Shown here: positions 50,000 to 64,000 of the stretch, one piece after another
How the letters are laid out: each line of letters opens with the position of its first letter
Position numbering within the stretch: position 1 is the first letter of the stretch
Assembly (NCBI GenBank): GCA_947493335.1
Contig: CANLQO010000001.1
Coordinates: forward strand, 496,001-560,000
From: an uncultured Paracoccaceae bacterium
GTDB taxonomy: Bacteria > Pseudomonadota > Alphaproteobacteria > Rhodobacterales > Rhodobacteraceae
Direction of reading: 5' to 3'
Length of the DNA stretch: 64,000 nucleotides
Position numbers and translations under genes: made by a program
The notes under the pieces: model-generated
Databases searched by the model: none
The model's input: only the letters and a program-made list of their open reading frames with translations
What the model was told of the DNA's origin: nothing

Positions 50000-50583
50000 T
50001 GCTGGGGCGCGGGCGAAAGCTGCGGATCGAAACCGACCGTATGACACTGCGCCCGCCGCAGCACAGTGACTTTCGCGCCTGGGCCGCGCTGCGCGACAAC
50101 AGCCGCGACTTTCTGACCCCATGGGAGCCGACCTGGGCTGCCGACCACCTGAGCCGCAAGGCCTTTACCAATCGGGTCTATTGGGCGCAGCGGTCGATCA
50201 CGAACGGCTCTGCCGTGCCGCTTTTTCTGATTCGGCGCAGTGATGATGTGCTGTTGGGTGCGATCACGCTGGACAATATTCGCCGGGGCCCCGCGCAGGC
50301 GGGCACAACGGGGTATTGGGTCGGGTCGGCCCATGCGCGGCAAGGCTACATGCGCGAGGCGATCCAGGCCGTGGTGCATTACGCCTTTGAGGTGCTGGAC
50401 CTCAGCCGGATCGAGGCAGGCTGCCTGCCCGAAAATACCGCCAGCCGCCGGTTGCTGGAGCTGTGCGGTTATAAATACGAAGGTGTCGCGCAAAGCTATT
50501 TGCAGATTAACGGGCGCTGGCGCAACCACGTGCTTTACGCCAACCTGCGCCACGACCGGCGCGGCAAAACCGACGCTGGCTGA
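49999..50583 (+). CDS. GNAT-family acetyltransferase, RimJ/RimL type
   Basis: A 194-residue acetyltransferase: IETDRMTLRPPQHSDFRAWAAL at the N-terminus, GYWVGSAHARQGYMREAIQAVV with the acetyl-CoA loop (HARQGYMREA), and SRRLLELCGYKYEGVAQ typical of RimJ, which acetylates ribosomal protein S5. Specificity within the RimJ/L group is uncertain. Its start overlaps the last base of the peptidase stop. Confidence 0.9.
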   Translation: MLGRGRKLRIETDRMTLRPPQHSDFRAWAALRDNSRDFLTPWEPTWAADHLSRKAFTNRVYWAQRSITNGSAVPLFLIRRSDDVLLGAITLDNIRRGPAQAGTTGYWVGSAHARQGYMREAIQAVVHYAFEVLDLSRIEAGCLPENTASRRLLELCGYKYEGVAQSYLQINGRWRNHVLYANLRHDRRGKTDAG

Positions 50584-50662
50584 CCTGTCGATTTGGACAG
50601 GGCCAGAAAATCCCCGTTTTGTGCTATGGTTCCCCATTGTTTTAAGAGGGGGAAATTCGATC

Positions 50663-50995
50663 ATGCCATTGTTTTGCACACATATGCGCTACACCGATGA
50701 CGCACTTGTCGCCATCATCAAGAAGAAAGAGGACCGGTCGGTCATCGCCAAACGGGCTATTGAATCGGCGGGGGGAACCTTTCACGGCATGTACGGCATG
50801 CTGGGGCAAAGCCACCATGTCATGGTGATCGCCGACATGCCGTCCATGCAGGAACACCTTGCTGTCGTGATGAAGGTGATGATGGGTGGCTCTGTCGCGG
50901 ATGTGAAGACGATCACGCTATATCAGGGGGCCGATGTGGCGGCTGCTGCCGCCTTGGCGCAGGGTGATACGGTGGACTATAGCCCAGTCGAGTAA
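50663..50995 (+). CDS. GYD-domain small protein
   Basis: A 110-residue protein of the GYD family, a small dimeric alpha/beta-barrel-like fold: FCTHMRYTDDALVAIIKK, the central AIESAGGTFHGMYGMLGQSHHVMVIADMP and a helical second half. These proteins are widespread and uncharacterised. A strong AGAGGGGGA site precedes the ATG at 50663; a longer frame from 50240 overlaps the acetyltransferase. Confidence 0.85.
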   Translation: MPLFCTHMRYTDDALVAIIKKKEDRSVIAKRAIESAGGTFHGMYGMLGQSHHVMVIADMPSMQEHLAVVMKVMMGGSVADVKTITLYQGADVAAAAALAQGDTVDYSPVE

Positions 50996-51046: not shown

Positions 51047-51955
51047 ATGAGTTTCACGCGTCTGCTGACCCTGTTGTCCTGCCTGTGCCTTGCGGCCTGC
51101 GGCTATGTGCCGACGGCCAAGACCGGGGCGGATGATCCACTGTTGTTCAACCCCGCCGCGGTTGCGCGGGCGGATAAGATTGCGGTGTTCATCCCCGGTG
51201 CGTTGTCCTCTGTCGATGTGTTCGAGGGCAGCCGCCATTGGGAAGACGCAGGCTATGCCCGCGCGTTTTATCGCTATCCCGGCCTCGATGGGATGGCCGT
51301 TGACCATTATGTCGACCCACCCACTGCTGCGGCACGGATCACGGAATTTGCCAACGCCTATCCTGACAAGGACATCGCGCTGGTCGGCTATTCCACCGGC
51401 GGGCTGATCGCGCTCGAGGCCGCGGCAGACATGACCAAGGGCCGCGACGTGCATGTGGCGGCAATGTCGACCGCCGTGGAATATGGTGGCGGGGTCAGCA
51501 CCGTGGCGCGTGGCGCGCGGGATATCCTGCGTGCGGTTGTCGCCACTAAATCCATCCGCAAGGCCGATCTGTGGAAACGCTATTGGTCGGGGCTTTTGTT
51601 TGGGCCCGACGCGCTGGATGATCCGGCACTGGCCGAACCCTTGGCCGAAAAGATCACCGAGGGCGAAAAGATCTACGTCAAGCTTGACCCGCAAATCGCC
51701 ATTGCCCATGCGCTGGCGCTGCCGGGATGGGAGCTGCCGGATGATCTGGACCTGACCGGCGTTGAAACCGCGTTCTTTGTCGGTATGAACGATCCTGTTT
51801 TTTCCCTGCGTCAGACCACGACTTTTGCGACCCAGATCGGCGGCGTGCCGGTCTATGGCTATCCGGGGCAGGGGCACCTGTTGTTCTTTACCCGTCCGGA
51901 CGTCTTTGACGACATGCTGCAATTCGTCGAAGGTCAGGACCCGCTGACCCGATAG
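51047..51955 (+). CDS. alpha/beta-hydrolase lipoprotein
   Basis: A 302-residue lipoprotein with lipobox LAAC at 15-18 and an alpha/beta-hydrolase domain. The nucleophile elbow is VGYSTGGLIALEAA and a late His occurs in GYPGQGHLLFF. The N-terminal strand AVFIPGALSSVDVFEG gives the oxyanion hole. It probably works as a periplasmic esterase or lipase on an unknown substrate. A terminator begins 3 bp after its stop. Confidence 0.85.
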   Translation: MSFTRLLTLLSCLCLAACGYVPTAKTGADDPLLFNPAAVARADKIAVFIPGALSSVDVFEGSRHWEDAGYARAFYRYPGLDGMAVDHYVDPPTAAARITEFANAYPDKDIALVGYSTGGLIALEAAADMTKGRDVHVAAMSTAVEYGGGVSTVARGARDILRAVVATKSIRKADLWKRYWSGLLFGPDALDDPALAEPLAEKITEGEKIYVKLDPQIAIAHALALPGWELPDDLDLTGVETAFFVGMNDPVFSLRQTTTFATQIGGVPVYGYPGQGHLLFFTRPDVFDDMLQFVEGQDPLTR

Positions 51956-52099: not shown

Positions 52100-53110
52100 C
52101 TAAGTTTGCAAGTCTTTCAAGCGGTTCAACACATTCAGCCCCTGCATGTCGAGAAAGTGCAGGATGTCGATGAAAATCCAGTTCTCGGCCAGTTTGTCAC
52201 CGTCGCGGCGGTAAATATCGACTACGCGCATATCCGCGGTCGGCCCTTTGGGAAGACCCATGTAGCCGCCTGTCGGCGTGACGCTCAGGTTGGCCCAGCC
52301 AAAAAAGCCGCCATAGTTTCCCTCGGCCAGTTTGGCCTGATGGCCATGAAAGACGCGGTCGGTCAGATGTGTGCGGAATGGTTGCTGGTGCTGGGTGATA
52401 TAGCGGTCAATCGTATAGGTCGCGCCGATCCCGTCAGGACCCCACCACAGCATGTCATCGTGCCAGCAGCGCGACAGTTCTTTTTGTGGCGTTTCGCGCG
52501 GGGTGGACCCCGGTCCGGTGTTGGAATTGGCGGCGATGTCGTCGATCATCCGGTCGATCAGGGCCAGCGTCGCCTCTCCGCCCGGTGTGTCGTCATAAAG
52601 CAGCCCGTCATGGGTCAGCGGCCCGGGCTGCACCAGATGCTGGCCGGTCTGGGGCGGCAATGGGCGCAGCCCCGCCTGATGCATCAGATGCACCAGATCA
52701 ATGAACAGCGCGGTTTCAACGATCTTGCCGTCCTTGACGCAGTTGAACTCTGCATAGCGCAGCATGGTGATCTTGCCCGTTGGCGGGATGCCCAGAAAGG
52801 GCGCATCAAAGAGCCCCATCAGATGGCCCATGGAGACGACCCATGTCCCGGGGCGGCCCGCGGCGACATTGGTGCCCGCAAAGAAGATATCGGGCCGCCG
52901 CTGCACCCGGCGCATGGCCGTCAGAAAGGGCGCCCAAAAGCTGGCAGCCACATCCGCCGCACCATATTGTTCATAAAAGGGATGCATCCCGCGCCAGTGC
53001 CAGTCGGCGCTTGTCCGTTCGGCCAGAATGCCTGCGACGGTCGCAGGGGTGGCACCTGCCAGCGCATCGTAATGCGCCAGCACAAGGGCCTTCGCGTCTT
53101 GAAAACTCAT
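52100..53110 (-). CDS. double NTF2-like (SnoaL-type) protein A
   Basis: A 336-residue soluble protein made of two NTF2-like modules. The first half ends GTFxGIPPTG-like (FLGIPPTGKITMLRYAEF, GKIVETALFIDLVHLMHQAG); the second ends with TGGYMGLPKGPTADMRVVDI and AENWIFIDILHFLDMQG. NTF2 folds act as isomerases, dehydratases or cyclases in polyketide and steroid pathways, or just bind ligands; no catalytic residues can be assigned by eye. It is the last gene of the leftward ABC operon, 3 bp after the permease stop. Two more NTF2-like genes lie in the divergent operon. Confidence 0.82.
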   Translation of the reverse strand: MSFQDAKALVLAHYDALAGATPATVAGILAERTSADWHWRGMHPFYEQYGAADVAASFWAPFLTAMRRVQRRPDIFFAGTNVAAGRPGTWVVSMGHLMGLFDAPFLGIPPTGKITMLRYAEFNCVKDGKIVETALFIDLVHLMHQAGLRPLPPQTGQHLVQPGPLTHDGLLYDDTPGGEATLALIDRMIDDIAANSNTGPGSTPRETPQKELSRCWHDDMLWWGPDGIGATYTIDRYITQHQQPFRTHLTDRVFHGHQAKLAEGNYGGFFGWANLSVTPTGGYMGLPKGPTADMRVVDIYRRDGDKLAENWIFIDILHFLDMQGLNVLNRLKDLQT

Positions 53111-53113
53111 TGG

Positions 53114-53995
53114 TTAGCCTTTGACCGCACCCGCTGTCAGGCCAGAGACAATCTGGCGCTGGAAGAACATGATCATCACAAAGAGCGGCGCGGTGATCGA
53201 CACCGCGGCGGCCACGGCGAACATCACGTTACCCTTGGTCTGCGTGGTGCCAAGGAAGCTGACGATCTTGGGCACCATGGTCTGGTTTTCCTTGGTCAGC
53301 AGCATGATGGTCACGGCAAAGTCGTTATACGCCAGCAAAAAGCTGAAGAGGCCCGTGGTGATCACCCCCGGCCACATGATCGGGATGATCACATGCCGGA
53401 AGGCCTGAAACCTGTTGCACCCGTCGACCATCGCGCTTTCGTCAAGATCGGCCGGGATGTTCTTGAAGAAGGAATGCAGCATCCACAACGTAAAGGGCTG
53501 GTTGATCGCCACCAGCACGATGATCGTGGTGTAAAGGTGACCCCAGAGGTTCCATTCAAAGAACGGCAAGAGGTAACCCGAGACCAGCGTAATCGGCGGC
53601 ATCGCCCGGAAGATCAGCGCGAAGAACAGAAACCAGAACGCATAGCGAAAGCCAGAGCGCGCCAGCGCGTAGCCGCCCAGCGTGCCACAAGTGAGCGAGA
53701 TCGAGACGACGCAAACACAAACGATCACGGTGTTCATTGCGGCGCGCCAAAACTCTTCCTGGACCCAAGCACCGTAGTAGCCCTGACCGGTAAAGGATGC
53801 ACCGGTCTCTGCCGTGGTCAGCGGGCCGATGATGGCATTCAGCCAGTTCGCCTTGGAAAAGAAATCGCCCTCGACCTTGAAGCTGCCCCAAGTTGTCCAC
53901 AGGAACGGGAAGGCCGCGATGACCAGCCACAGCAACAGAAAGACTGTTGCGATGACCATGACGGGCAGGGGTCGCTTGGTGGCTATGCTACTCAT
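53114..53995 (-). CDS. ABC sugar-type transporter permease (MalG-like)
   Basis: A 293-residue permease with six transmembrane helices. The cytoplasmic EAA loop, which docks on the ATPase, reads DESAMVDGCNRFQAFRHVIIPIMWPGV. It pairs with the 53997 permease. The start MSSIATKRP at 53995 is preferred; a frame open to 54064 runs into the neighbouring gene. It lies one base from its partner's stop. Confidence 0.92.
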   Translation of the reverse strand: MSSIATKRPLPVMVIATVFLLLWLVIAAFPFLWTTWGSFKVEGDFFSKANWLNAIIGPLTTAETGASFTGQGYYGAWVQEEFWRAAMNTVIVCVCVVSISLTCGTLGGYALARSGFRYAFWFLFFALIFRAMPPITLVSGYLLPFFEWNLWGHLYTTIIVLVAINQPFTLWMLHSFFKNIPADLDESAMVDGCNRFQAFRHVIIPIMWPGVITTGLFSFLLAYNDFAVTIMLLTKENQTMVPKIVSFLGTTQTKGNVMFAVAAAVSITAPLFVMIMFFQRQIVSGLTAGAVKG

Positions 53996-53996
53996 C

Positions 53997-55022
53997 TCAG
54001 GTCCTCGGGGTAAAGTCGCGGTAGGTGCGTACCAGCACCGGTGACAGCAGGATGGCGACGCCAATGATCGTCAAGACGGATGTGGCCGCGGCAGAAGACA
54101 ACAGACGCGTTTCGCCGCCCAGATCGCTGAAGATAAAGTAGGACAGCGATTGCGCGTGCGCCTGCGCCTGAAAACTCACCAAGGGTTCAAAGACCCGGAA
54201 GTTGTCCATCAACTGGATCAGGGCCACGAAGGTTGTCAGCGGCACCAGATGCGGGATGACCACGTAGCGGATACGCTCCCACCGGCTGGCGCCGTCGATG
54301 ATTGCGGCCTCGATTGTGTCCTGATTGACGGTCTGCAAGCCGGCGTAGAACACCACAAAGGCGAAGGGGGCAGAGTGCCAGACGCCATAGACCATCAGCA
54401 TGATCCACATCAGCGTGGTGTCCGCCTTGACCGATAGCGTCGGATCATCGGCCAGCCATTGTAATGCGCCGCCCAGAATACCGCGCGCATCCACCATCCA
54501 GAACAGGGCCAGGCCCCCGACAATGGGCGTGACGACCATGGGCAAGAGCGACAGGAAGATCGTCGGCCCCTTCAGCCATTGCGCCACCGTGTTGACCACC
54601 AGAGCGATCGCAAATCCTGCGATGATCGTTAGCGGTGTCACGATGAAGGTATAGGTCAGGGTGAAGGCCATCGCGCGGTAGAATGGCAGGTTCATAAGTG
54701 CCGCGCCAAAATCGGGCAGGCCTTCGGCCTCGCGCCATGCGCCGCCAACCTCGGCAAAGGCCAGATGATTGCGGTCCGTGTAAATATCGGTGCCGACGTA
54801 TTTGCCCAAGGGCTCTGCTTCGCGCAGCGCCTGCGTCGCTTCCTGGTCAATCGCGGTGGTTTGGGTGCAGCCGAAGGGGCCACAGTTTTCGACCGTCACG
54901 ACCACCTGTTCATGGGCCGCATAGACCGATTGTGTCACCACCGACACGATGGGCAGTGCGATGAAAAGCAGCATCAGGATGGCTGAGGGTAAAACGAACC
55001 AAAAGAACGTGCTGTGCTTCAT
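53997..55022 (-). CDS. ABC sugar-type transporter permease (MalF-like) with large periplasmic loop
   Basis: A 341-residue permease with six helices and the EAA loop EAAIIDGASRWERIRYVVIPHLVP. Between helix 1 (about 10-32) and helix 2 (about 110) is an enlarged periplasmic insertion holding Cys47 and Cys52 (CGPFGC), able to form a disulfide; similar MalF loops touch the binding protein. The end overlaps or abuts the second permease. A strong hairpin separates it from the binding-protein gene. Confidence 0.92.
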   Translation of the reverse strand: MKHSTFFWFVLPSAILMLLFIALPIVSVVTQSVYAAHEQVVVTVENCGPFGCTQTTAIDQEATQALREAEPLGKYVGTDIYTDRNHLAFAEVGGAWREAEGLPDFGAALMNLPFYRAMAFTLTYTFIVTPLTIIAGFAIALVVNTVAQWLKGPTIFLSLLPMVVTPIVGGLALFWMVDARGILGGALQWLADDPTLSVKADTTLMWIMLMVYGVWHSAPFAFVVFYAGLQTVNQDTIEAAIIDGASRWERIRYVVIPHLVPLTTFVALIQLMDNFRVFEPLVSFQAQAHAQSLSYFIFSDLGGETRLLSSAAATSVLTIIGVAILLSPVLVRTYRDFTPRT

Positions 55023-55044
55023 GACAATGCCCCAAAGTGAGTGG

Positions 55045-55069
55045 AGGAGGGGCGAAAACCGCCCCTCCT
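55045..55069. promoter_or_regulatory. stem-loop between binding-protein and permease genes
   Basis: GGAGGGGCG (55046-55054) and CGCCCCTCC (55060-55068) are perfect 9-bp arms, with an extra A-T pair outside and a 5-nt loop. It follows the binding-protein gene on the minus strand. There is no T-run, so a partial terminator or 3' mRNA-protecting hairpin that raises binding-protein levels over permeases is more likely than full termination. Confidence 0.65.
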
Positions 55070-55078
55070 GCAGACGTC

Positions 55079-56326
55079 TTACTGCAGGTAACCCTGCTCT
55101 TTTGCCGCAGCGGTATAGGCCGCTTCGACATCGGCCAGCGCCTGCTCTGCGCTTTCGTTGCCCTGCAGGTAGTCAGCCAGGTTGTCACCCAGTGCCGAGT
55201 GCAGCAGACCCATGAAGGGCAGCATCGGGTAGGGGTTTGCACCGGCGGCCACAGTGGCCAGCACGCCTTCGTTGACGGGCTCGGGCTCAAAGCCATCCAT
55301 CAGCCACACGGCCTGAGACATCGTCTCATCGTTCAGCAGTGCGGGCGAGGTTGCATGCGCCAGTGCCTGGAAGGTTGCCGCAGCTTCTTCATCGCTGATG
55401 TTCTTGGCCACGGTCCAGCCGTCCCACCACAGGGTTGATGCGGGCACACCGCTGTCACCCACTGTCAGCGGACCACCGGCAACCGTGTTGGAATAGACTT
55501 CCATGGCAGAGCCTTCGTCGTCCATCAAAACACCGGTCCGGCTGCCCCACATGTTCATCAGAGCCACGTTGCCAGCTTCCCATTCCGCGCTTGTGGCGTT
55601 GCTGTCATGGGTCAGGAAGTCGGGGTTCATGTATTCGGTCAGCGCCTTCATCATCTCCAGCGCGGCTACGCCCTGCGCATTGTTGATGCTGACGTTCGGA
55701 GTGCCGGGTTCAAAGAACGCGCCGCCCGCACCCAGATACATGTTCACGAATTCCTCGGCGAGGTTCCAGCCCGCAGCATAGGCACCGCCCACCGGATTTT
55801 CCATGATACCTTCGGCGCGAATTTTCTCGGCTGCCGCCAGCACTTCCTCATAAGATGTGGGCACATCCATGCCGATCTGCTCAAGCACGTCCTTGCGATA
55901 CACAAGGTGCTGGGCGTTCGCCATAAAGGCCACCGCCATGACTTTGCCGTCGATGGTGATCAACTGGCGGGCCGGGATGTCCTGACCGTATTCAGCGACC
56001 AGATCATCCAGCGGGCGGATCACGTCTTCGTTGATCAGTGCCACGATGGAAGAGTTCGCGATGATCGCGCTGGTGTATTCCGCAGGGTTGCCCTGCATGC
56101 CAGCCACGTTGATCGTCTGATGCTCGGACGTCAGGTTGCTTTCAGCGGTGATGCCGTCGGCACAGGCCAGCGCCGCGGCTGCGACGGATTGGATGGCAGG
56201 AAACTCGTTGCCGACGATGTTGATCCGGCCTTCGGTGACGGCGCACCCGTGGCCGCCAGCGAGGGCGGTGGTGCCAGTCAGGACGGCCATTGCCGTACCG
56301 AAGAGGGCTGTCTTCATCATGTTCAT
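55079..56326 (-). CDS. ABC transporter solute-binding protein (sugar/polyol type)
   Basis: A 415-residue periplasmic binding protein of family SBP_bac_1/8. Residues 1-23 form a signal peptide ending ALA. The mature part has the usual two-lobe pattern (INIVGNEFPAIQSVA, YRKDVLEQIGMDVPTSYEEVL, GNVALMNMWGSRTGVL). It contains a pair of cysteines early in the mature protein (GHGC and LACADG). The ligand cannot be predicted. Start at 56326 has a GGGAG site. It is the first gene of the leftward operon and is divergent from the ATPase gene. Confidence 0.92.
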   Translation of the reverse strand: MNMMKTALFGTAMAVLTGTTALAGGHGCAVTEGRINIVGNEFPAIQSVAAAALACADGITAESNLTSEHQTINVAGMQGNPAEYTSAIIANSSIVALINEDVIRPLDDLVAEYGQDIPARQLITIDGKVMAVAFMANAQHLVYRKDVLEQIGMDVPTSYEEVLAAAEKIRAEGIMENPVGGAYAAGWNLAEEFVNMYLGAGGAFFEPGTPNVSINNAQGVAALEMMKALTEYMNPDFLTHDSNATSAEWEAGNVALMNMWGSRTGVLMDDEGSAMEVYSNTVAGGPLTVGDSGVPASTLWWDGWTVAKNISDEEAAATFQALAHATSPALLNDETMSQAVWLMDGFEPEPVNEGVLATVAAGANPYPMLPFMGLLHSALGDNLADYLQGNESAEQALADVEAAYTAAAKEQGYLQ

Positions 56327-56435
56327 GTATAAACTCCCGGTTTGTCAGGTGCCGCCTTTGACGCGGCTTCATTTTCGCACGGCCACCATAGCCGCAGTGC
56401 ATAGACGATGATGCCGCGCGAATCGCTGCACCAAT

Positions 56436-56451
56436 TGCATACGCTTGCAAG
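56436..56451. promoter_or_regulatory. LacI-type operator, site 1
   Basis: TTGCATACGCTTGCAA; its reverse complement TTGCAAGCGTATGCAA differs from site 2 by one base. Central CG with TTGCA half-sites fits LacI-family operators. It lies 110 bp upstream of the binding-protein start. Confidence 0.78.
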
Positions 56452-56527
56452 TTAACCGCCTTGTGCACCGGTCACGCAAGAAAAATTCGGCCTGATGCAA
56501 AAAAATATTCTCATATTACTTTAGGGC

Positions 56528-56556
56528 TTGATTGGATTTGCGACTCGGGTCAAGAT
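56528..56556 (+). promoter_or_regulatory. possible promoter of the rightward operon
   Basis: A -35-like TTGATT (56528-56533) and a weak -10-like CAAGAT (56551-56556) are 17 bp apart and end one base before operator site 2, where bound repressor would block transcription. The -10 match is poor, so this is only a suggestion. Confidence 0.25.
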
Positions 56557-56572
56557 TTGCAAACGTATGCAA
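56557..56572. promoter_or_regulatory. LacI-type operator, site 2
   Basis: TTGCAAACGTATGCAA, a near-perfect palindrome around CG, 14 bp upstream of the ATPase start. The centre is 121 bp from that of site 1, so looping by one LacI tetramer or two dimers acting separately are both possible. Confidence 0.8.
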
Positions 56573-56586
56573 ATTTGGGGGCCGAG

Positions 56587-57630
56587 ATGGCGCAAATTGA
56601 GCTGCGCAATGTGACGAAACGATGGGGCAGCTTTATTGGCGTCCATGATTTCAATCTGACCATTGCGGATCAAGAGTTTCTGGTTTTGTTGGGCCCGTCG
56701 GGCTGCGGCAAGACGACGACAATGCGGATGATTGCCGGGTTGGAGGATGCGACAGGCGGCGACATTCTGGTCGATGGCAAACGCATCAACGACCTCGACC
56801 CGAAGGACCGGGACGTGGCGATGGTGTTTCAAAGCTACGCGCTTTACCCCAACATGAATGTCTATGAGAACATCCGCTTTCCGCTCAAAGTGCGCAAAGT
56901 GGGTGGCGATCACGACGCGATGGTCAAACGCGCCAGCGCGATGGTCGAACTGGACGAATTCCTGCACCGCAAACCGGCGGAATTGTCGGGCGGTCAGCGG
57001 CAGCGCGTGGCGCTGGCCCGCGCTGTGGTGCGCGAACCCAATGTGTTCCTGATGGATGAGCCGCTGTCGAACCTTGATGCAAAGCTGCGGGTGTCGACAC
57101 GGGCGCAGATCAAGAACCTCAGCCACGAGTTGAAGACCACCACAATCTACGTGACCCACGACCAGATCGAAGCGATGACGCTGGCGGACCGGGTTGTGGT
57201 CATGAACAAGGGCAAGGTTCAGCAGGTGGGCAGCCCGACGGACATCTATGACAACCCCGCCAATACCTTTGTGGCGGGTTTCATCGGCAGCCCGGCGATG
57301 AACCTGATGGACGGCACGCTGGAAAACGGCACCTTTACCACGGACAAGGTCAAGATCACGGGGCTGGATAGCAGCCACAACGGCCCTGTCACGCTGGGTT
57401 TCCGGGCCGAGGATGCGACCGTGGCCACCGGTGAAAGCGATGCCAATTCCAAGGTCTACTCGCTTGAGCTTTTGGGTGAGGCGACGATGGTCACAATGCG
57501 CGCTGGCGGCACGATCATCTCGGTCAAGTCCGGCAAGGAGTTCCGCACAGAGATTGGCGACCCGGTCAGCGCGTCGATCCCGGCCGAGATCTGCCATTTG
57601 TTTGACCGCGACACGGGCGAGCGTCTGTGA
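56587..57630 (+). CDS. ABC transporter ATP-binding protein (MalK/UgpC-like)
   Basis: A 347-residue ATPase of carbohydrate uptake ABC systems: Walker A GPSGCGKT at 36-43, signature LSGGQRQRVALARA near 134, Walker B FLMDEPLSNLDAKL, and a C-terminal TOBE/OB regulatory domain (GFRAEDATV, TIISVKSGKEF). It energises the two permeases encoded leftward. It starts the rightward operon; the ATG at 56587 follows a GGGGGCCGAG site. An open frame to 56461 crosses the operator and is not coding. Confidence 0.94.
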   Translation: MAQIELRNVTKRWGSFIGVHDFNLTIADQEFLVLLGPSGCGKTTTMRMIAGLEDATGGDILVDGKRINDLDPKDRDVAMVFQSYALYPNMNVYENIRFPLKVRKVGGDHDAMVKRASAMVELDEFLHRKPAELSGGQRQRVALARAVVREPNVFLMDEPLSNLDAKLRVSTRAQIKNLSHELKTTTIYVTHDQIEAMTLADRVVVMNKGKVQQVGSPTDIYDNPANTFVAGFIGSPAMNLMDGTLENGTFTTDKVKITGLDSSHNGPVTLGFRAEDATVATGESDANSKVYSLELLGEATMVTMRAGGTIISVKSGKEFRTEIGDPVSASIPAEICHLFDRDTGERL

Positions 57631-57633
57631 AGC

Positions 57634-59136
57634 ATGACAGCCGCACAGGCATATAACTTTCTGGTGATTGGCGCGGGTTCGGCGGGCTGTGCAGTGGCGG
57701 CAGGGCTGTCGCGAGACGGTGACAGCGTCGCCGTGATCGAGGCGGGACCGTCCGACAATCATCCGTTGGTCAAAATGCCGTTCGGCCTGATCTGGTTGAT
57801 GGGGTCAGCGCGCGACTGGCAGTTCAAATCCGCCCCCATGGCAGGGCTGAAGGGCCGCCAGATCAATATCCCGCGTGGCCGCATGGTGGGCGGATCTGGC
57901 TCGATCAATTCCATGGTGTGGTTTCGGGGCAGGGCCGCTGACTTTGACGACTGGGGTGTGCCGGGTTGGGGGTGGACGGATGTCGCCCCGGCGTTTGAGG
58001 CGGTCGAGGCGCAAACAACACCCGACACGCTCGACAATCCGCACCCGATGGTTGCCAAGCTGGGCGCGACCTTTGGGGCCAACCGGCCCGAAGCACCAAC
58101 CCCCGAGCGCGCCAGCGGCGGCGTCTTTCGCTATAATATGCGGCGCGGGCGGCGCTGGTCGGCGGCGGATGCATTCCTGCGTCCCGCGCGCGGCGTCACG
58201 GTCCTGACCGGACGGCAGGTGCAACGTTTGGTGACCGAACAATCCCGCGCAACCGGGGTGGAAATGTCGGATGGGCAGACCATCGCGGCGCGGCGCGGCG
58301 TGGTGCTGTCAGCCGGGTCAATCGGGTCCCCCGCGATCCTTTTGCAATCCGGCATCGGGCCTGCGGCTGATCTGGCCCGCGCGGGCATCCCGCTTGTGCG
58401 CGATGTGCCCGGCGTTGGTGCAAACCTGCACGATCACCCCGGCGTCGGCCTGCACTTTGCCGGGCCGCATTCCGGCTATGGTGTGTCATGGCGGCATGCG
58501 CTGGCCTGGGCCTCGGCGCCGCTGCGCTATGCGCTGGGCGGGCGCGGCATCTTCAATTCACCGACCGTCGAAGGTGGCATGTTCTTTGGGGCGGATGCAG
58601 ATGGTGCGCCGCAGTTCCAAAGCCATTTCATCCCCTTTTTCATGAACCCTGCCGGGTCGCGCTATACTCCGGGAGAGGGGTATTTTGCCGACGTCTGCCT
58701 GTGTCGGCCCACATCCCGCGGCGCGCTGCGGATGACGCCCGATGGCCTGTCTATCGACCTGGGGCTCTTCTCCGACCCGCGCGATCTGGATCAGATGGTC
58801 GCGGGCATCACCGAATTGCGCCGCCTGCTGGCCGCTACCCCGCTGGAGCCGCACCGCGCACCCGAGGTTAAGCCCGGACCGCATGTGGCCGGGGCCGATG
58901 AGTTGCGCGCTTTTGTGCAGGACAACGCAGGCACGGCCTATCACCCTGTTGGCACGCTGCGCATGGGCGCAGATGCCGCCGCGCCCGTTGACCCTCGTCT
59001 TGCGTTTCGCGGCATGGACGGGCTTTGGGTCGCGGATGCCTCGGTCATGCCTGCAATCACCTCTGCCAATACCAACGCGCCGTCGATGATGATTGGTCAT
59101 CGTGCGGGGCAAATGATCCGGGAAGATACACGATGA
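57634..59136 (+). CDS. GMC-family FAD oxidoreductase (choline-dehydrogenase-like)
   Basis: A 500-residue GMC flavoenzyme. FAD motif IGAGSAGCAVAAGLS at the N-terminus, GMC signature 1 PRGRMVGGSGSINSMVWFRG, signature 2 GSIGSPAILLQSGIG, and the C-terminal active site TAYHPVGTLRMG with the catalytic His, then a second His/Asn site in NTNAPSMMIG. It oxidises a primary or secondary alcohol, passing electrons to a carrier or O2. No choline or betaine genes adjoin, so the substrate is more likely the compound imported by the ABC system. It overlaps the next gene as ATGA. Confidence 0.92.
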   Translation: MTAAQAYNFLVIGAGSAGCAVAAGLSRDGDSVAVIEAGPSDNHPLVKMPFGLIWLMGSARDWQFKSAPMAGLKGRQINIPRGRMVGGSGSINSMVWFRGRAADFDDWGVPGWGWTDVAPAFEAVEAQTTPDTLDNPHPMVAKLGATFGANRPEAPTPERASGGVFRYNMRRGRRWSAADAFLRPARGVTVLTGRQVQRLVTEQSRATGVEMSDGQTIAARRGVVLSAGSIGSPAILLQSGIGPAADLARAGIPLVRDVPGVGANLHDHPGVGLHFAGPHSGYGVSWRHALAWASAPLRYALGGRGIFNSPTVEGGMFFGADADGAPQFQSHFIPFFMNPAGSRYTPGEGYFADVCLCRPTSRGALRMTPDGLSIDLGLFSDPRDLDQMVAGITELRRLLAATPLEPHRAPEVKPGPHVAGADELRAFVQDNAGTAYHPVGTLRMGADAAAPVDPRLAFRGMDGLWVADASVMPAITSANTNAPSMMIGHRAGQMIREDTR

Positions 59137-59639
59137 CGACAGACGACCACGCGGCCCTAAGCGCGGCGACCCTTGCTGCGGTCAAGCGGATGGAGGCAGG
59201 CCTTGCCAATGCCGAAGCCGATATGACTCCCTATTTCACGCCTGACTTTCTATGGCGTGGTAACCGGGGATGCGGCACCAAGACCGGCCTCGACGCGTTC
59301 CGCCGGAATTGGCAGCTGCCGCTGCGCGCCGCGTTTTCGGATCGCGCATACAAGACAGAAGAATTCCTGGCCGACGGTGAATGGGCCGCCTGTTTCGGAC
59401 ATATCGAAGCCACCCATACCGGCACCTTCATGGGGATCGCACCGACCGGCAAACGCATCCGCATTCCTTACATGGATTTCTGGCGGGTCGAAGATGGCCG
59501 CATCGCCGACAATCCGGTCTCGGTCGATTTTGCAGAAGTCATGCACCAGCTTGGCGTCGATGTTTTTGGCGGCGAAGGCTGGGAGGCATACGACAACGGG
59601 ACCAAGACACCAACCTTCCCGGAGGGGGAAACACCATGA
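59133..59639 (+). CDS. single NTF2-like (SnoaL-type) protein B
   Basis: A 168-residue protein with one NTF2-like domain: helical N-terminus ([20 protein letters not shown]), [57 protein letters not shown] and [14 protein letters not shown]. The PTGK turn and the DGRI-DN segment echo both halves of protein A at 52100. Function is unknown; this fold can isomerise or dehydrate small substrates. Start overlaps the GMC stop, and its own stop overlaps the next start. Confidence 0.85.
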
Positions 59640-60967
59640 CCATCCGTCATCTGAAAACCGCACGCTCTGCCGAAGCCCGCGCAGAGGATGATGCCAAGAC
59701 CCGTGCCGTGGTCGAGGCGACGCTGGCCGATATCGAGGCGCGCGGCGATGCCGCCGTGCACGAACTGGCGGTGAAGTTTGATGGCTATGATCGCGCCAGC
59801 TATCGCCTGACCGACGACGAGATTCAGTCAATCATCGCCAAGGTCTCTGACCGCGACATGGCCGATATCAAATTTGCACAGGAACAGGTGCGTAACTTTG
59901 CGCAGGCGCAAAGGGACAGCATGTTGGATATCGAGGTTGAGCCGATGCCCGGCGTCATCCTTGGCCACAAAAACATCCCCGTGCAATCGGTGGGCTGCTA
60001 TGTGCCCGGCGGCAAATTTCCCATGGTCGCATCGGCGCATATGTCGGTCGCCACCGCCTCTGTCGCCAAGGTGCCGCGCATTATCGCCTGCACGCCGCCC
60101 TTCAAGGGCGAACCGAACCCGGCGGTGATTGCCGCGATGCATCTGGGCGGCGCGCATGAGATTTACGTGCTTGGTGGCATTCAGGCCGTGGGCGCCATGG
60201 CCATCGGGACCGAAACGATTGACCCCGTGCATATGCTTGTCGGTCCCGGCAACGCCTTTGTGGCCGAAGCCAAACGCCAGTTGTTCGGCCGCGTCGGCAT
60301 CGACCTGTTCGCTGGCCCGACAGAGACGATGGTGATCGCGGATGAGGCGGGTGCCGACGCCGAACTTTGCGCCACGGACCTCTTAGGGCAGGCCGAACAT
60401 GGCTATAATTCACCCGCTGTGCTGCTGACGAACTCTGAAAAGCTGGCAAAAGACACCATGGCCGAGATTGAGCGTATCCTTGGCATCCTGCCCACCGCTG
60501 ACACCGCCCGTGTGTCGTGGGAAGACTATGGCGAGGTGATCGTCTGCGACACCTATGACGAGATGTTGCAGGTCGCTGACGATATCGCGTCAGAGCATGT
60601 GCAGGTGATGACCGACCGCGACGACTGGTTCCTTGAAAACATGACCTGCTATGGCGCGCTGTTTCTTGGGGCCCGCACCAATGTCTCGAACGGGGACAAG
60701 GTCATCGGCACCAACCACACGCTGCCCACAAAAAAGGCCGGGCGCTACACAGGCGGACTTTGGGTTGGTAAGTATCTGAAAACCCACAGCTATCAAAAGA
60801 TCACCACAGATGAGGCTGCGGCCGAGATTGGCGCTTATGGCTCTCGTCTGTGCCTGCTCGAAGGCTTTGTCGGCCATGCCGAGCAATGTAACGTTCGCGT
60901 GCGGCGCTACGGCGGGATCAACGTGCCATACGGCGGCCCGGCCCCTTACCGCGACGCGGCAGAGTAG
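59636..60967 (+). CDS. HisD-superfamily zinc dehydrogenase, HpsN-like
   Basis: A 443-residue NAD-dependent dehydrogenase. Zn and catalytic residues of HisD are conserved: [11 protein letters not shown] (Gln, His), SEHVQVM (Glu-His), [13 protein letters not shown] (Asp) and [10 protein letters not shown] (His). It is unlikely to be the histidine enzyme: the context is a catabolic operon with no other his genes, and the regions [13 protein letters not shown]-type and [10 protein letters not shown] look like HpsN (sulfopropanediol 3-dehydrogenase), which oxidises a terminal alcohol to a carboxylate in two NAD-dependent steps. DHPS as substrate is a hypothesis only. Confidence 0.88.
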
Positions 60968-60974
60968 GCGGCAG

Positions 60975-61046
60975 ATGCACGACCACCACGATTACGTTCC
61001 CAGTCTGACAGCGGCGCAAATCCTGCGGGCAAAGCGCGATGACTGA
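60975..61046 (+). CDS. possible 23-residue mini-ORF before the SDR gene
   Basis: ATG at 60975 reads MHDHHDYVPSLTAAQILRAK plus RDD and stops at 61046, overlapping the SDR start at 61039 by 8 bp. A weak GGCGG precedes it. The SDR gene's own ribosome region lies inside this frame, so it could couple translation of hisD-like and SDR genes, or be a small His/Asp-rich peptide. It may also be chance; conservation in relatives would decide. Confidence 0.4.
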   Translation: MHDHHDYVPSLTAAQILRAKRDD

Positions 61047-61806
61047 TCTGCCGCAAACCCCCTCGTTTCGCCTTGATGGGAAGCGCGCTTTGGTCGCGGG
61101 GGCCTCTTCGGGGATCGGGTTAGCCTGTGCCACGGCATTGGCGCAGGTCGGGGCCGAGGTGACGCTTGCCGCGCGGTCGGCGGGCAAGCTGCAGGCGGCG
61201 GTTGACGCGTTGAACGCCGCTGGGTTTTCGGCCTCTGCCATGACGCTGGATGTGGCCGACGTCCCGGCGATGCAGGCCGCGGTCGCGTCTGCAGGGCCGT
61301 TTGATGTGCTCTTGAACTCTGCCGGGTTGGCAATCCATTCCCCGGCGATTGAAACCAAACCCGATGATTTCGATGCGGTGAGTGACCTCAATTTCAAAGG
61401 GGCCTACTTCCTGACCACCGCCGTGGCCAAGGGGCTGTTGGACGCAGGTAAGCCGGGGTCGCTGATCAACATCACCAGCCAGATGGCCTTTGTCGGTGGC
61501 ATTGACCGCGCGGTCTATTGCGGCACCAAACATGCGGTTGAGGGCTTTACCAAAGCCATGGCGATCGAATGGGGCAAGGCGGGCATTCGGGTCAATACGA
61601 TCTGCCCGACATTCATTCGCACGCCCCTGACCGAACAGACCTTCAGCAACCCCGACCGGGTCGCCTGGATCATGGACAAGATCAAGCTCGACCGGATTGG
61701 CGAGGTCACGGATATCATGGGGCCCGTCGTTTATCTCGCCTCTGACGCAAGCGCGATGATGACCGGCACGCATCTGGTCATCGACGGCGGCTGGACGGCG
61801 GACTGA
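61039..61806 (+). CDS. short-chain dehydrogenase/reductase
   Basis: A 255-residue classical SDR: cofactor motif GASSGIG at 21-27, NSAGLAI, catalytic Ser in NITSQMAF, YCGTKHA (Tyr and Lys), and the C-terminal ending HLVIDGGWTAD. Preference for NAD or NADP is not clear: the residues after strand 2 read AARSAGK, which favours NADP. It probably oxidises or reduces an intermediate of the imported compound. It shares its last base with the LacI start. Confidence 0.92.
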   Translation: MTDLPQTPSFRLDGKRALVAGASSGIGLACATALAQVGAEVTLAARSAGKLQAAVDALNAAGFSASAMTLDVADVPAMQAAVASAGPFDVLLNSAGLAIHSPAIETKPDDFDAVSDLNFKGAYFLTTAVAKGLLDAGKPGSLINITSQMAFVGGIDRAVYCGTKHAVEGFTKAMAIEWGKAGIRVNTICPTFIRTPLTEQTFSNPDRVAWIMDKIKLDRIGEVTDIMGPVVYLASDASAMMTGTHLVIDGGWTAD

Positions 61807-62828
61807 TGGCATCCGACAAGATCACATCCCTCGAAGTTGCCAAACGCGCAGGCGTCAGCCAATCGGCGGTCAGCCGGGTCTTTACGCCCGGTGCCTCGGC
61901 CAGCGCCAAAACGGTGGAAAAGGTCAAGCGCGCGGCGGCTGAATTGGGCTATCGGCCCAACCGCATGGCCAGCGCGATGATCACCGGCAAGAGCCGCATC
62001 ATCGGCCTGATCGTGGCCTATCTGGACAACATGTTTTATCCGCTGGCACTTGAGCGGCTGTCGAATGCGCTACAGGCGCAGGGCTATCACATCCTTGTCT
62101 TCACCGCGTCCAATGCACAGGACCGCGTGGATGAGATCGTCTCAGAACTGATGGACTATCAGGTCGACGGGATCATCACTGCCTCAGTCTCCATGTCGGG
62201 TGATCTGACGGCAAAGTGCGCGGCCGCAGGCATCCCCGTTGTGATGTTCAACCGTGGTCAGGATGGTGTGGACCTCTCTGCCGTGACCTCTGCCAATCTG
62301 GCAGGCGGGCGCAAGGTGGCGGATTTCATGGCGGGCGCGGGGTACCGGACCATCGCCCATATCTCTGGCTGGCAAGGGTCCTCGACGGGCCGTGACCGCC
62401 AGCGTGGCTTTGTCGAACGCCTGGCAGAGCTGGGTCAACCCACACCGCAGATCATTGACGGCAAATATGACCGCGACACGGCGTCCGCTGCCGCCGTCAC
62501 CCTGATGCAATCAGACACGCCGCCCGATGCGATCTTTGTTGGTAACGACCATATGGCATTTGCGGTGATGGACACGCTGCGCGGCGAATTGGGGCTGCGG
62601 GTGCCGCAGGACGTGGCGATTGTCGGCTATGATGACGTGCCGACCGCCGCCTGGGCCGCCTATGACCTGACCACCGTGCGCCAGCCGGTCAACCAAATGG
62701 TCGAAGCGACCGTGGACCTGCTGATTGCCAACATCGCTGACCCCCATGCCCCGGTGCGCCGGGTCGAAATCGACGGCCCGCTGATTGTGCGCGGCTCTGC
62801 ACCTCAAACCCAAAGGACGACCCCATGA
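61806..62828 (+). CDS. LacI-family regulator of the divergent regulon
   Basis: A 340-residue LacI repressor: helix-turn-helix at about 6-53 (SLEVAKRAGVSQSAVSRVFT) with hinge NRMASAMITGKS, then a ligand domain (IIGLIVAYLDNMFYPLALE, DAIFVGNDHMAFAVMDTL). Located inside the operon that starts at 56587, it is the best candidate to bind the two operators at 56436 and 56557 and to sense the imported compound or an intermediate. Start overlaps the SDR stop and its own end overlaps the next gene. Confidence 0.92.
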   Translation: MASDKITSLEVAKRAGVSQSAVSRVFTPGASASAKTVEKVKRAAAELGYRPNRMASAMITGKSRIIGLIVAYLDNMFYPLALERLSNALQAQGYHILVFTASNAQDRVDEIVSELMDYQVDGIITASVSMSGDLTAKCAAAGIPVVMFNRGQDGVDLSAVTSANLAGGRKVADFMAGAGYRTIAHISGWQGSSTGRDRQRGFVERLAELGQPTPQIIDGKYDRDTASAAAVTLMQSDTPPDAIFVGNDHMAFAVMDTLRGELGLRVPQDVAIVGYDDVPTAAWAAYDLTTVRQPVNQMVEATVDLLIANIADPHAPVRRVEIDGPLIVRGSAPQTQRTTP

Positions 62829-63805
62829 AGGGCTTTTCGAACCGGTGGAAGGACTTCCCCGACTACATCATCGGCATCACCAAAGAGATCTGGGAAGATC
62901 GCGGCGTTGGCACGCTGAACCACTATTATGCCAAGGATATCCCGGTCCGCTCGCCCATGGGGATCGCGGTGGGCAACAAGGCGACGATGGCCGCGACCAT
63001 GGCCACGATTAACGAGTTCCCCGACCGTCAACTGTTTGGCGAAGACGTGATCTGGTCCGAACATGAAACCGGGCTTTTGTCCTCGCACCGGCTAAACACG
63101 GTGGCGACCCATGCCCATGACGGCGCTTTTGGCCCGGCGACGGGCAAGAAATGGAATATCCGCGTCATCGCCGATTGCGCGGCCAAGGAAGACACGATCT
63201 TTGATGAATGGCTGATCCGCGACTACGGCGGCATCGTCCGCCAGATCGGCAAGGACCCGCGTGAGTTCACGGCCCAGTTGATTGCCGATGAAGGCGGGCC
63301 AGAGACGGCCGCGATGCCCTTCCTGCCGGAAAACGATATTGAGGGCGATTACAAGGGCACAGGCAATGACAACGCATGGGGCCAGCGCTATGCCGATACG
63401 CTGACCCGGATCATGAACCATGATTTCAACCATGTGCTGGAAAGCTATGACCGCGCGGTGATCGGCGAATACGCAGGCGCGCAGATGCTGACGAGCGCGC
63501 AGGAATGCGTGAAGTTCTGGGTCGGCCTGAGGTCCTCATTCCCCTCGGCAGAGTTCAAGATCCACCATCAGATCGGCATGGATGCCGACATGCTCTCTCC
63601 TCGTGCCGCGATCCGCTGGTCGCTGGATGGCACACATGATGGCTGGGGCAGCTTTGGGCGGCCCACCGGCGCGCGGGTGCATGTCATGGGGATGAGCCAC
63701 GCCGAATTTGGCCCCTATGGTCCCGATGGCATCGGGCTTCGCCGGGAATTCGCGCTGTATGATGAAATCGCGATCTGGAAACAGATCCTTTTGGCGCAAG
63801 GGTAA
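62825..63805 (+). CDS. NTF2-like/ester-cyclase-type protein C, probably two modules
   Basis: A 326-residue soluble protein: N-terminal GFSNRWKDFPDYIIGITKEIWEDRG and an NTF2-type segment with THAHDGAFGPATGKKWNIRVIAD and DEWLIRDYGG, then a second helix-plus-sheet block ending FGRPTGARVHVMGMSHAEFGP and FALYDEIAIWKQILLAQG. It is related to the SnoaL-like polyketide cyclase/ester cyclase group and partly parallels protein A. No enzymatic residues are certain. It overlaps the LacI stop (ATGA) and the next start (TAATG). Confidence 0.82.
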   Translation: MKGFSNRWKDFPDYIIGITKEIWEDRGVGTLNHYYAKDIPVRSPMGIAVGNKATMAATMATINEFPDRQLFGEDVIWSEHETGLLSSHRLNTVATHAHDGAFGPATGKKWNIRVIADCAAKEDTIFDEWLIRDYGGIVRQIGKDPREFTAQLIADEGGPETAAMPFLPENDIEGDYKGTGNDNAWGQRYADTLTRIMNHDFNHVLESYDRAVIGEYAGAQMLTSAQECVKFWVGLRSSFPSAEFKIHHQIGMDADMLSPRAAIRWSLDGTHDGWGSFGRPTGARVHVMGMSHAEFGPYGPDGIGLRREFALYDEIAIWKQILLAQG

Positions 63806-64000
63806 TGGACAGCTACGGCGATCATCTTTTTACCGATGCGGTGCAGGCCCTGCAGGACAAGGCCGGGATGCGCGACCGTTACGCGGCGGTCTACAAAACC
63901 CGGCTGCGCGGCGGCCTTGGCCCGGATGAAACCGCCTTTTTGTCGGCGCGGACCTCATTCTATATCGCCTCGGTCGGGGCCAATGGCTGGCCTTACGTGC
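63805..64000 (+). CDS. pyridoxamine 5'-phosphate oxidase-like flavoprotein, 3' end outside window
   Basis: The first 65 residues are visible. They read like the N-terminus of a PNPOx-fold FMN or F420-binding protein (helix with ALQDKAGMRDRYAAVYK, then DETAFLSARTSFYIASVGANGWPYV). The TAATG overlap makes it part of the rightward operon. It may supply or use flavin electrons in the pathway; the rest of the gene is off the window. Confidence 0.8.
   Translation, partial: MDSYGDHLFTDAVQALQDKAGMRDRYAAVYKTRLRGGLGPDETAFLSARTSFYIASVGANGWPYV

Follow-up and report, generated by a model that had tools for sequence, protein, structure and literature searches.

The 64,000-nucleotide stretch of DNA analysed here (hereafter 'the window'; uncultured Paracoccaceae bacterium, assembly GCA_947493335.1, contig CANLQO010000001.1, positions 496,001 to 560,000) carries towards its end two divergent operons encoding an ABC importer, a HisD-like dehydrogenase, an SDR oxidoreductase, a LacI-family regulator, SnoaL/NTF2 proteins and further enzymes. 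Together these genes form a real and widespread regulon, strongly co-conserved in related genomes. With a probability of roughly 0.6, we read it as a regulon under LacI control that serves the breakdown of a single imported compound, polyhydroxylated and sugar- or polyol-like; it appears to be a catabolic pathway without an assigned substrate in the literature searched.

Gene content and layout of the regulon

As judged by open reading frames (ORFs) and Pfam scans, the regulon spans positions 52100 to ~ 69466 and thus runs beyond the window end at 64000. The minus-strand operon (56326-52100) encodes the binding protein, two permeases and SnoaL-A; the plus-strand operon (56587-64452) encodes the ATPase, GMC, SnoaL-B, HisD-like, SDR, LacI, SnoaL-C and PNPOx proteins and, cut by the window, goes on with bicupin, MetE-like, alpha/beta hydrolase, RraA-like and GlcD-like genes. 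Most neighbouring genes overlap by 1–4 bases or are separated by 3-base spacers, with four gaps of 54–88 bases. The genes named in a preliminary description of this DNA (importer, GMC, HisD-like, SDR, LacI, PNPOx-like and three NTF2-like genes in two divergent, tightly packed operons) were all recovered; it had placed the whole set between 52100 and 64000, of which the start held, while the end had to be moved to take in the five further genes. The features are as follows:

52100..53110, minus strand: SnoaL-A, two-domain SnoaL/NTF2 protein, 336 amino acids (Pfam SnoaL, 51.7 bits; SnoaL_2, two stretches)
53114..53998, minus strand: ABC permease 2 (Pfam BPD_transp_1; start set by inspection at the ATG overlapping permease 1, open frame extending to 54064)
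53997..55022, minus strand: ABC permease 1, 341 amino acids (Pfam BPD_transp_1)
55079..56326, minus strand: periplasmic binding protein, 415 amino acids (Pfam SBP_bac_1)
56435..56450, no strand: candidate LacI operator O1, TTGCATACGCTTGCAA, palindrome in the divergent promoter
56557..56572, no strand: candidate LacI operator O2, TTGCAAACGTATGCAA, palindrome 122 bases from O1
56587..57630, plus strand: ABC ATPase with MalK OB domain, 347 amino acids (Pfam ABC_tran, OB_MalK)
57634..59136, plus strand: GMC oxidoreductase, 500 amino acids, accessory (Pfam GMC_oxred_N/C)
59133..59639, plus strand: SnoaL-B, single-domain SnoaL protein, 168 amino acids (Pfam SnoaL, 79 bits)
59636..60967, plus strand: HisD-like dehydrogenase of the GKFPM subfamily, 443 amino acids (Pfam Histidinol_dh, 434 bits; motif; tree)
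61039..61806, plus strand: SDR oxidoreductase, 255 amino acids (Pfam adh_short_C2)
61806..62828, plus strand: LacI-family regulator, 340 amino acids (Pfam LacI and Peripla_BP_3)
62825..63805, plus strand: SnoaL-C, two-domain SnoaL protein, 326 amino acids (Pfam SnoaL, two stretches; structure model)
63805..64452 (window end 64000), plus strand: PNPOx-like flavoprotein (frame and Pfam)
Past the window end, in window coordinates (all by Pfam):
64449-65414: bicupin
65503-66630: MetE-like protein
66627-67313 (scanned as 66621-67313): alpha/beta hydrolase
67310-68002: RraA-like protein
68057-69466: GlcD-like FAD oxidase

The importer belongs to the CUT1 type, its SBP_bac_1 binding protein, two BPD_transp_1 permeases and ATPase with a MalK OB domain each scoring over the Pfam cut-off. 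The binding protein had weak PDB matches to 40 distinct sequences of sugar-type binding proteins, with MalE3 best and SmoF second. A 'polyol-like' substrate, as first proposed, is a reasonable, if putative, description. PDB sequence searches with SnoaL-C, the MetE-like protein, the cupin, the RraA-like protein and the binding protein all returned weak or unspecific matches.

Co-conservation in related genomes

Gene neighbourhoods were compared over ~ 20 kb around the HisD-like anchor in 60 of the 145 genomes with a match (one locus each, hand-picked over 74–94% HisD identity, some stretches stopping at a contig end), a gene being counted as present when at least 40% of the query was covered at 40% identity or more. 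Gene calls behind the larger locus counts given below, among them those on motif and palindrome, came from a home-made ORF caller, which left some frames over-long or antisense, and some of those loci occur in duplicate under two names, the 149 HisD-like ORFs corresponding to 137 distinct sequences. Presence was highest for SDR (53/60), cupin (51), SnoaL-C and LacI (49 each), followed by the ATPase (46), both permeases (44 each), binding protein (43), MetE (42), RraA (39), hydrolase and SnoaL-B (35 each) and SnoaL-A (30). HisD, SnoaL-C, cupin, binding protein, SDR and LacI genes all occurred together in 41 of the 60 loci. GMC (8 loci) and PNPOx (5) behaved as accessory genes, and GlcD was present in 4 loci; of the stepwise alcohol oxidation by GMC, HisD-like and SDR enzymes that had been proposed at the outset, the GMC part is thus confined to few of the related loci.

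As a control, eight blocks taken from elsewhere in the same genome (125 kb) gave just five matches to the same queries, four at 25–39% identity and the fifth being the HpsN that anchored its own block. These few, low-identity matches indicate that the grouping of the genes exceeds chance. Among 292 genomes of the order (expectation value limits of 1e-140 for HisD and 1e-60 for SnoaL-C and cupin, relatedness uncorrected), the HisD-like, SnoaL-C and cupin markers were found in 145, 135 and 133 genomes, respectively; 128 genomes carried all three, 143 none and 21 some. One genome (G007) had its cupin matches on a different contig from HisD, so the association does not arise by linkage alone. Plasmids of Octadecabacter arcticus, Ruegeria sp. 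AD91A and Paracoccus alcaliphilus also carry the annotated set, in Paracoccus without MetE. The neighbourhood comparison therefore bears out the expectation that the regulon is co-conserved.

A GYD-domain protein (50507-50995) and another alpha/beta hydrolase (51047-51955) lie directly upstream of the set; this hydrolase was found in none of the 60 related loci, which puts it outside.

LacI regulator and candidate operators

The regulator combines a LacI helix-turn-helix with a periplasmic-binding-like domain (Pfam), as expected of its family. Allowing up to two mismatches, the palindrome of the candidate operators had 78 intergenic matches in 366 kb versus 62 in 2.8 Mb called coding, and in 53 of 167 loci it was found outside called genes, mostly between the binding protein and ATPase genes. 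In the strain's own genome, the same limit gave 15 palindrome sites versus 3 for the reversed pattern. With predicted operators in the divergent promoter and co-conserved genes on either side, the reading as a LacI-controlled importer-plus-catabolism regulon, already advanced in the preliminary description, gains support. A wider regulon drawn from the own-genome operator sites was considered and dropped, the two outlying perfect sites being not clearly beside related genes.

Distant versions and the link to sugar acids

At an expectation value of 1e-30, the cupin was found in 15 of 299 genomes of the phylum. Besides that of the strain itself, these comprise nine from its family and five that are more distantly related, four of the latter being examined (L267, L268, L269 and L270). 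All four have a HisD-like gene 63–68% identical to that of the window, a cupin and an SDR, the latter 27% identical to the window's in L268 and 38–51% identical in the others. LacI, hydrolase and HpcH/HpaI-type aldolase genes are present in L267, L268 and L269, and SnoaL genes in L267, L269 and L270. Their importers are of other kinds: from its sequence, that of L268 reads as a TRAP binding protein, that of L269 as MFS-like and that of L270 as sodium-symporter-like. HisD, cupin and an SDR are the constant part of the set in these lineages, with importer and aldolase exchanged for others.

An HpcH/HpaI-type aldolase was present in the stretches in which RraA was not found (L267, L268, L269 and L225), and a small set of HisD, SDR and HpcH genes plus a LacI gene occurs in L080. 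The assignments for L267, L268, L080 and Ensifer (see below) were checked and fall below equivalog cut-offs, while that for L269 is by Pfam HpcH_HpaI. Replacement of RraA by another type of aldolase points to an aldol-cleavage step and lends support to a substrate with a hydroxylated carbon chain that is split in a retro-aldol reaction. On a plasmid of Ensifer adhaerens NER9 (L284, 12001-18937), SnoaL-C (52% identity), the cupin (43% identity along 210 residues), LacI (34%) and the hydrolase (27%) all have relatives, accompanied by genes for an HpcH-type aldolase, for OtnK (456 bits against a cut-off of 350) and for an OtnC-like protein (241 bits against 250). The presence of OtnK and OtnC-like genes beside relatives of the cluster ties its chemistry to a C4 sugar acid.

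It could accordingly be asked whether the regulon is an already described sugar pathway (of the inositol, tetronate, apionate or ascorbate type) seen through divergent genes. The Ensifer variant speaks for this, as does the resemblance of the SDR to KduD, albeit below the cut-off. However, no scanned protein (NCBIfam scan without the ATPase) exceeded an equivalog cut-off for such a pathway, and no such gene set was found in the literature searched, so that we consider this explanation unlikely.

Downstream enzymes: cupin, MetE-like and RraA-like proteins

The structure model of the bicupin scored 92.1, and its fold neighbours in Foldseek were bicupins of many functions. In the cupin metal motif, a histidine is expected as the fourth ligand; in the alignment, the first domain of the window's protein keeps H76, H78 and E82 and has Arg120 at that site. 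The zinc site of MetE follows the pattern H-x-C, E, C, and the corresponding residues of the MetE-like protein (H243, C245, E277 and C343) were invariant in 27 sequences, while a stricter zinc-site pattern was found in 129 of 149 ORFs. RraA-type aldolases such as LigK have the motif G-X20-R-D-X2-E/D; in the RraA-like proteins, R-D-X2-E/D follows G-X18..22 in 100 of 102 sequences, with exactly X20 in one.

Of 289 genomes of the class, 53 hold MetE relatives at expectation values of 1e-40 or less, and many of these are distant; among the best 80 of 585 matches, close relatives were found in Ruegeria, Octadecabacter, Yoonia, Planktomarina, HTCC2255 and Roseibium. These enzymes could alternatively belong to the breakdown of a methylated aromatic or methoxylated compound, with the MetE-like protein moving a methyl group, the cupin acting as ring dioxygenase and the hydrolase and RraA-like protein acting like PcaD and LigK. 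MetE relatives of ~ 52% identity indeed adjoin LigAB, aminomethyltransferase and MTHFR genes in Novosphingobium, and one of 53% identity lies near glycine-cleavage-T-like and MTHFR genes in Sphingobium; the hydrolase resembles PcaD and the RraA-like protein LigK (both below cut-offs), and quercetin and 3-hydroxyanthranilate dioxygenases are among the bicupins matched by the cupin in Foldseek. On the other hand, no MetE was found in 18 of the 60 loci or in Paracoccus, whose set is otherwise complete; the importer and its binding protein are of carbohydrate type, and no O-demethylase was seen among the proteins scanned. On balance, such a substrate seems improbable.

Several further arrangements around MetE were observed. 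A SAM methyltransferase family is represented in 21 loci (e.g. L052:14829-15431), lying between cupin and MetE where drawn out. Plasmids of Novosphingobium (L234) and Sphingobium (L276) have a short NTF2 gene and an IclR gene after the MetE-like gene, with aminomethyltransferase-type and MTHFR genes near. On a Halobellus limi plasmid (L235, 1-11140), a MetE-like gene comes after a row of five 'ester cyclase' genes; ABC permease genes and one for an aldehyde dehydrogenase lie upstream. This was the only one of five haloarchaea with SnoaL annotated near MetE, none being annotated there in Halopiger, Halorussus, Halobaculum roseum or Halocatena; three nameless neighbours of MetE in Halopiger and Halocatena gave no SnoaL match.

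The HisD-like dehydrogenase

According to the accessible part of PMC11382572, HpsN is told from HisD by the motif GRY(A/S)H, the histidine of which (His126) binds the sulfonate, biosynthetic HisD having GSAPL at the same site; HpsN zinc ligands are Gln248, His251 and His411, plus Asp352 in the closed form, and Glu318 and His319 are catalytic. Alignment of the window's protein revealed GKFPM in place of GRY(A/S)H, with methionine for the motif histidine, and conservation of Gln248, His251, His411, Glu318/His319 and Asp352-Lys353 (HpsN numbering). GKFPM was found in 138 of the 149 family ORFs (126 of 137 distinct sequences), the remainder having GRYPL (3), GRYSH (2), four other single variants or no match to the motif (2), while distant family members have GKYPL. 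In the phylogenetic tree, three GRYSH proteins formed one clade (support 100/100) outside a 30-row GK(F/Y)P clade, whose support of 92/99 is slightly below the program's strong mark; two genes were entered twice in the tree. Both clades were separate from HisD and from a fourth clade with GRYPL (99/96). Members of the GRYPL clade (L045:18298-19617, L088:12991-14280 and L186:13839-15164) lie near an amidase family gene, and a long SnoaL gene lies near the GRYPL-type gene in L045 and L088.

The genome itself has three family members: biosynthetic HisD, the GKFPM protein and a GRYSH HpsN located separately from the regulon (C1:395906-397222). The two genes following the latter we take to be sulfopyruvate decarboxylase subunit-like, so that the strain has its own locus of the 2,3-dihydroxypropane-1-sulfonate (DHPS) type. 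By the features tested, the HisD-like enzyme of the regulon is a member of neither HpsN nor HisD, although its catalysis is probably like that of both.

These results bear on the suggestion that the substrate might be sulfonated, the regulon then being a DHPS or other sulfonate locus in which the HisD-like gene is HpsN or acts on a sulfonated compound. The four PDB sequences closest to the HisD-like protein are indeed DHPS dehydrogenases, ranking above histidinol dehydrogenases, and SmoF, a sulfoquinovosyl glycerol binder, keeps the chances of this reading above zero. It is nevertheless rejected on account of motif, tree and second HpsN in the genome, with no sulfo-lyase among the scanned proteins of 52100-69466, and we regard a sulfonate pathway as very improbable.

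A survey of hpsN transcripts in Tara Oceans data, as far as PMC11131964 was available, searched by BLAST with the R. pomeroyi protein and set its cut-off at 167 bits. Against the strain's own GRYSH HpsN rather than the R. pomeroyi sequence, the window's enzyme scored 371 bits and biosynthetic HisD 258, so that each would be taken for hpsN if nothing but such a threshold were applied. The HisD-fold subfamily of this regulon can thus pass for HpsN, which matters for hpsN counting.

SnoaL/NTF2 proteins

All three SnoaL/NTF2 proteins scored above the Pfam cut-off for SnoaL or SnoaL_2, and since the 336- and 326-residue proteins each have two domains, the three genes encode five NTF2 domains. Among the 60 relatives, the number of SnoaL genes per locus was 0 in 9, 1 in 3, 2 in 6, 3 in 13, 4 in 23, 5 in 5 and 7 in 1. 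The presence of three NTF2-like proteins in one regulon, noted from the beginning, is therefore correct, but it is not unusual as had been thought, several SnoaL genes per locus being the rule.

The structure model of SnoaL-C (predicted local distance difference test score 95.6) has two NTF2-like halves, and its top Foldseek matches were Lsd19 and MonBI/BII (polyether epoxide hydrolases) and the cyclase IdmH, at 10–20% identity. On the strength of these matches, one could propose a cluster that makes or modifies a polyketide- or polyether-like metabolite by means of SnoaL cyclases; the CUT1 importer with binding protein, LacI and aldolase genes point instead to uptake and breakdown, no polyketide synthase was seen among the proteins scanned, and the full-length template modelling (TM) score to Lsd19 and MonB was only 0.31–0.34 with a root-mean-square deviation of 16–18 Å, making this highly unlikely.

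Proposed pathway

In the pathway that we favour, LacI would act at the two palindromes and keep both operons silent as long as neither the substrate nor an early product is there, and the ABC importer would bring in the polyhydroxylated compound. The HisD-like enzyme may convert a terminal CH2OH beside a CHOH to a carboxylate, as in the four-electron steps of HpsN and HisD, and the SDR may oxidise a secondary alcohol. Acid-base chemistry would fall to the SnoaL proteins, in the form of an isomerisation, an elimination or the opening of a cyclic ether or lactone, while the alpha/beta hydrolase could open a lactone and the cupin could isomerise or oxygenate. Retro-aldol cleavage of a hydroxy-oxo-acid by the RraA-like enzyme is the presumed last step, and the MetE-like zinc protein would contribute one more, optional step at a thiol or methyl group. 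The order of these steps is inferred only.

A number of observations weigh against a single LacI-controlled pathway of this kind. Of the 60 loci, 19 lack one or more of the six core genes tested, and nine have no SnoaL gene at all. Intergenic palindrome matches are lacking in 114 of the 167 loci under our own gene calls, in which over-long frames cover some sites, O2 included, and lower the count. Two further perfect operator matches lie beside seemingly unrelated genes, by reading cell-division/cell-wall genes and a permease-like gene (C1:1763389 and C6:92263); other LacI regulators may thus share the motif. SnoaL and cupin folds, as compared by Foldseek, fix no reaction, and the PDB matches of the binding protein include, in second place, SmoF, whose ligand is sulfonated. 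Among the distant versions, L268 showed no SnoaL gene and has an SDR of only 27% identity, L270 showed neither LacI nor hydrolase nor aldolase within the 12 kb examined, and the Ensifer NER9 set has no annotated HisD within 12 kb. Likewise, plasmids of Vibrio pelagius (L279, four SnoaL/NTF2 genes) and Phaeobacter piscinae (L282, three) carry importer and SnoaL genes with no annotated HisD nearby, in PLSDB gene tables that are incomplete; SnoaL and HisD therefore need not share one linear path.

Literature and significance

No published pathway with the regulon's gene set was found in the literature searched, which included few subscription papers and is thus weak evidence of absence; to that extent, the initial view that this is not a described system stands. 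Neither 'histidinol' nor 'SnoaL' occurs in the available part of the main text of a survey of LacI regulons (PMC4052901), and no such cluster is described in the accessible portions of PMC10203303 and PMC9870897. Homarine was considered as a substrate and set aside, nothing relevant having been found in the same literature, and the 'ester cyclase' mentioned in the available part of a D. shibae paper refers to a chlorophyll gene, which has no relation to the cluster.

The cluster was also found in the open-water strain HTCC2255. Together with the joint occurrence of the three markers in 128 of 292 genomes of the order, this suggests a common plankton compound with an unrecognised breakdown route. 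More tentatively, and with doubts that exceed our confidence, we propose that the regulon is an undescribed pathway for an abundant plankton metabolite in which tandem SnoaL proteins might constitute a catabolic NTF2 class opening a cyclic ether, epoxide or lactone, with chemistry like that of Lsd19 and MonB, and feeding a third functional type of HisD-fold enzyme; part of the surveyed hpsN might then be this pathway.

Comparison with known systems

The importer shares binding protein, two permeases and MalK-type ATPase with the CUT1 carbohydrate ABC importers, but its binding protein and permeases fall below the equivalog cut-offs of the families matched. Similarly, the MetE-like protein shares the zinc site of cobalamin-independent methionine synthase, while its best equivalog score (91.3 bits) is far below the cut-off of 406. 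The two genes of the OtnK/OtnC tetronate pathway adjoin relatives of SnoaL-C, cupin and hydrolase in Ensifer, whereas neither gene is in the window's cluster. SnoaL-C has the NTF2 fold in common with Lsd19, MonBI-MonBII, IdmH and SnoaL2: single domains match IdmH with a TM score of ~ 0.78 by target length, and Lsd19 aligns over both domains. It differs from Lsd19 and MonB in its catabolic context, in sequence (10–12% identity) and, as the full-length TM scores imply, in the arrangement of its two domains. Finally, the HisD-like enzyme belongs to the same fold family as HpsN, the (R)-DHPS 3-dehydrogenase (PDB 8v35, 8wwe), with common zinc ligands and catalytic residues and 47% identity to the strain's own GRYSH protein, and is set apart by GKFPM, another clade and other gene neighbours; from HisD, with which it shares the family and a pass for NCBIfam TIGR00069, it is distinguished by motif, clade and an identity of ~ 39% to the strain's own enzyme.

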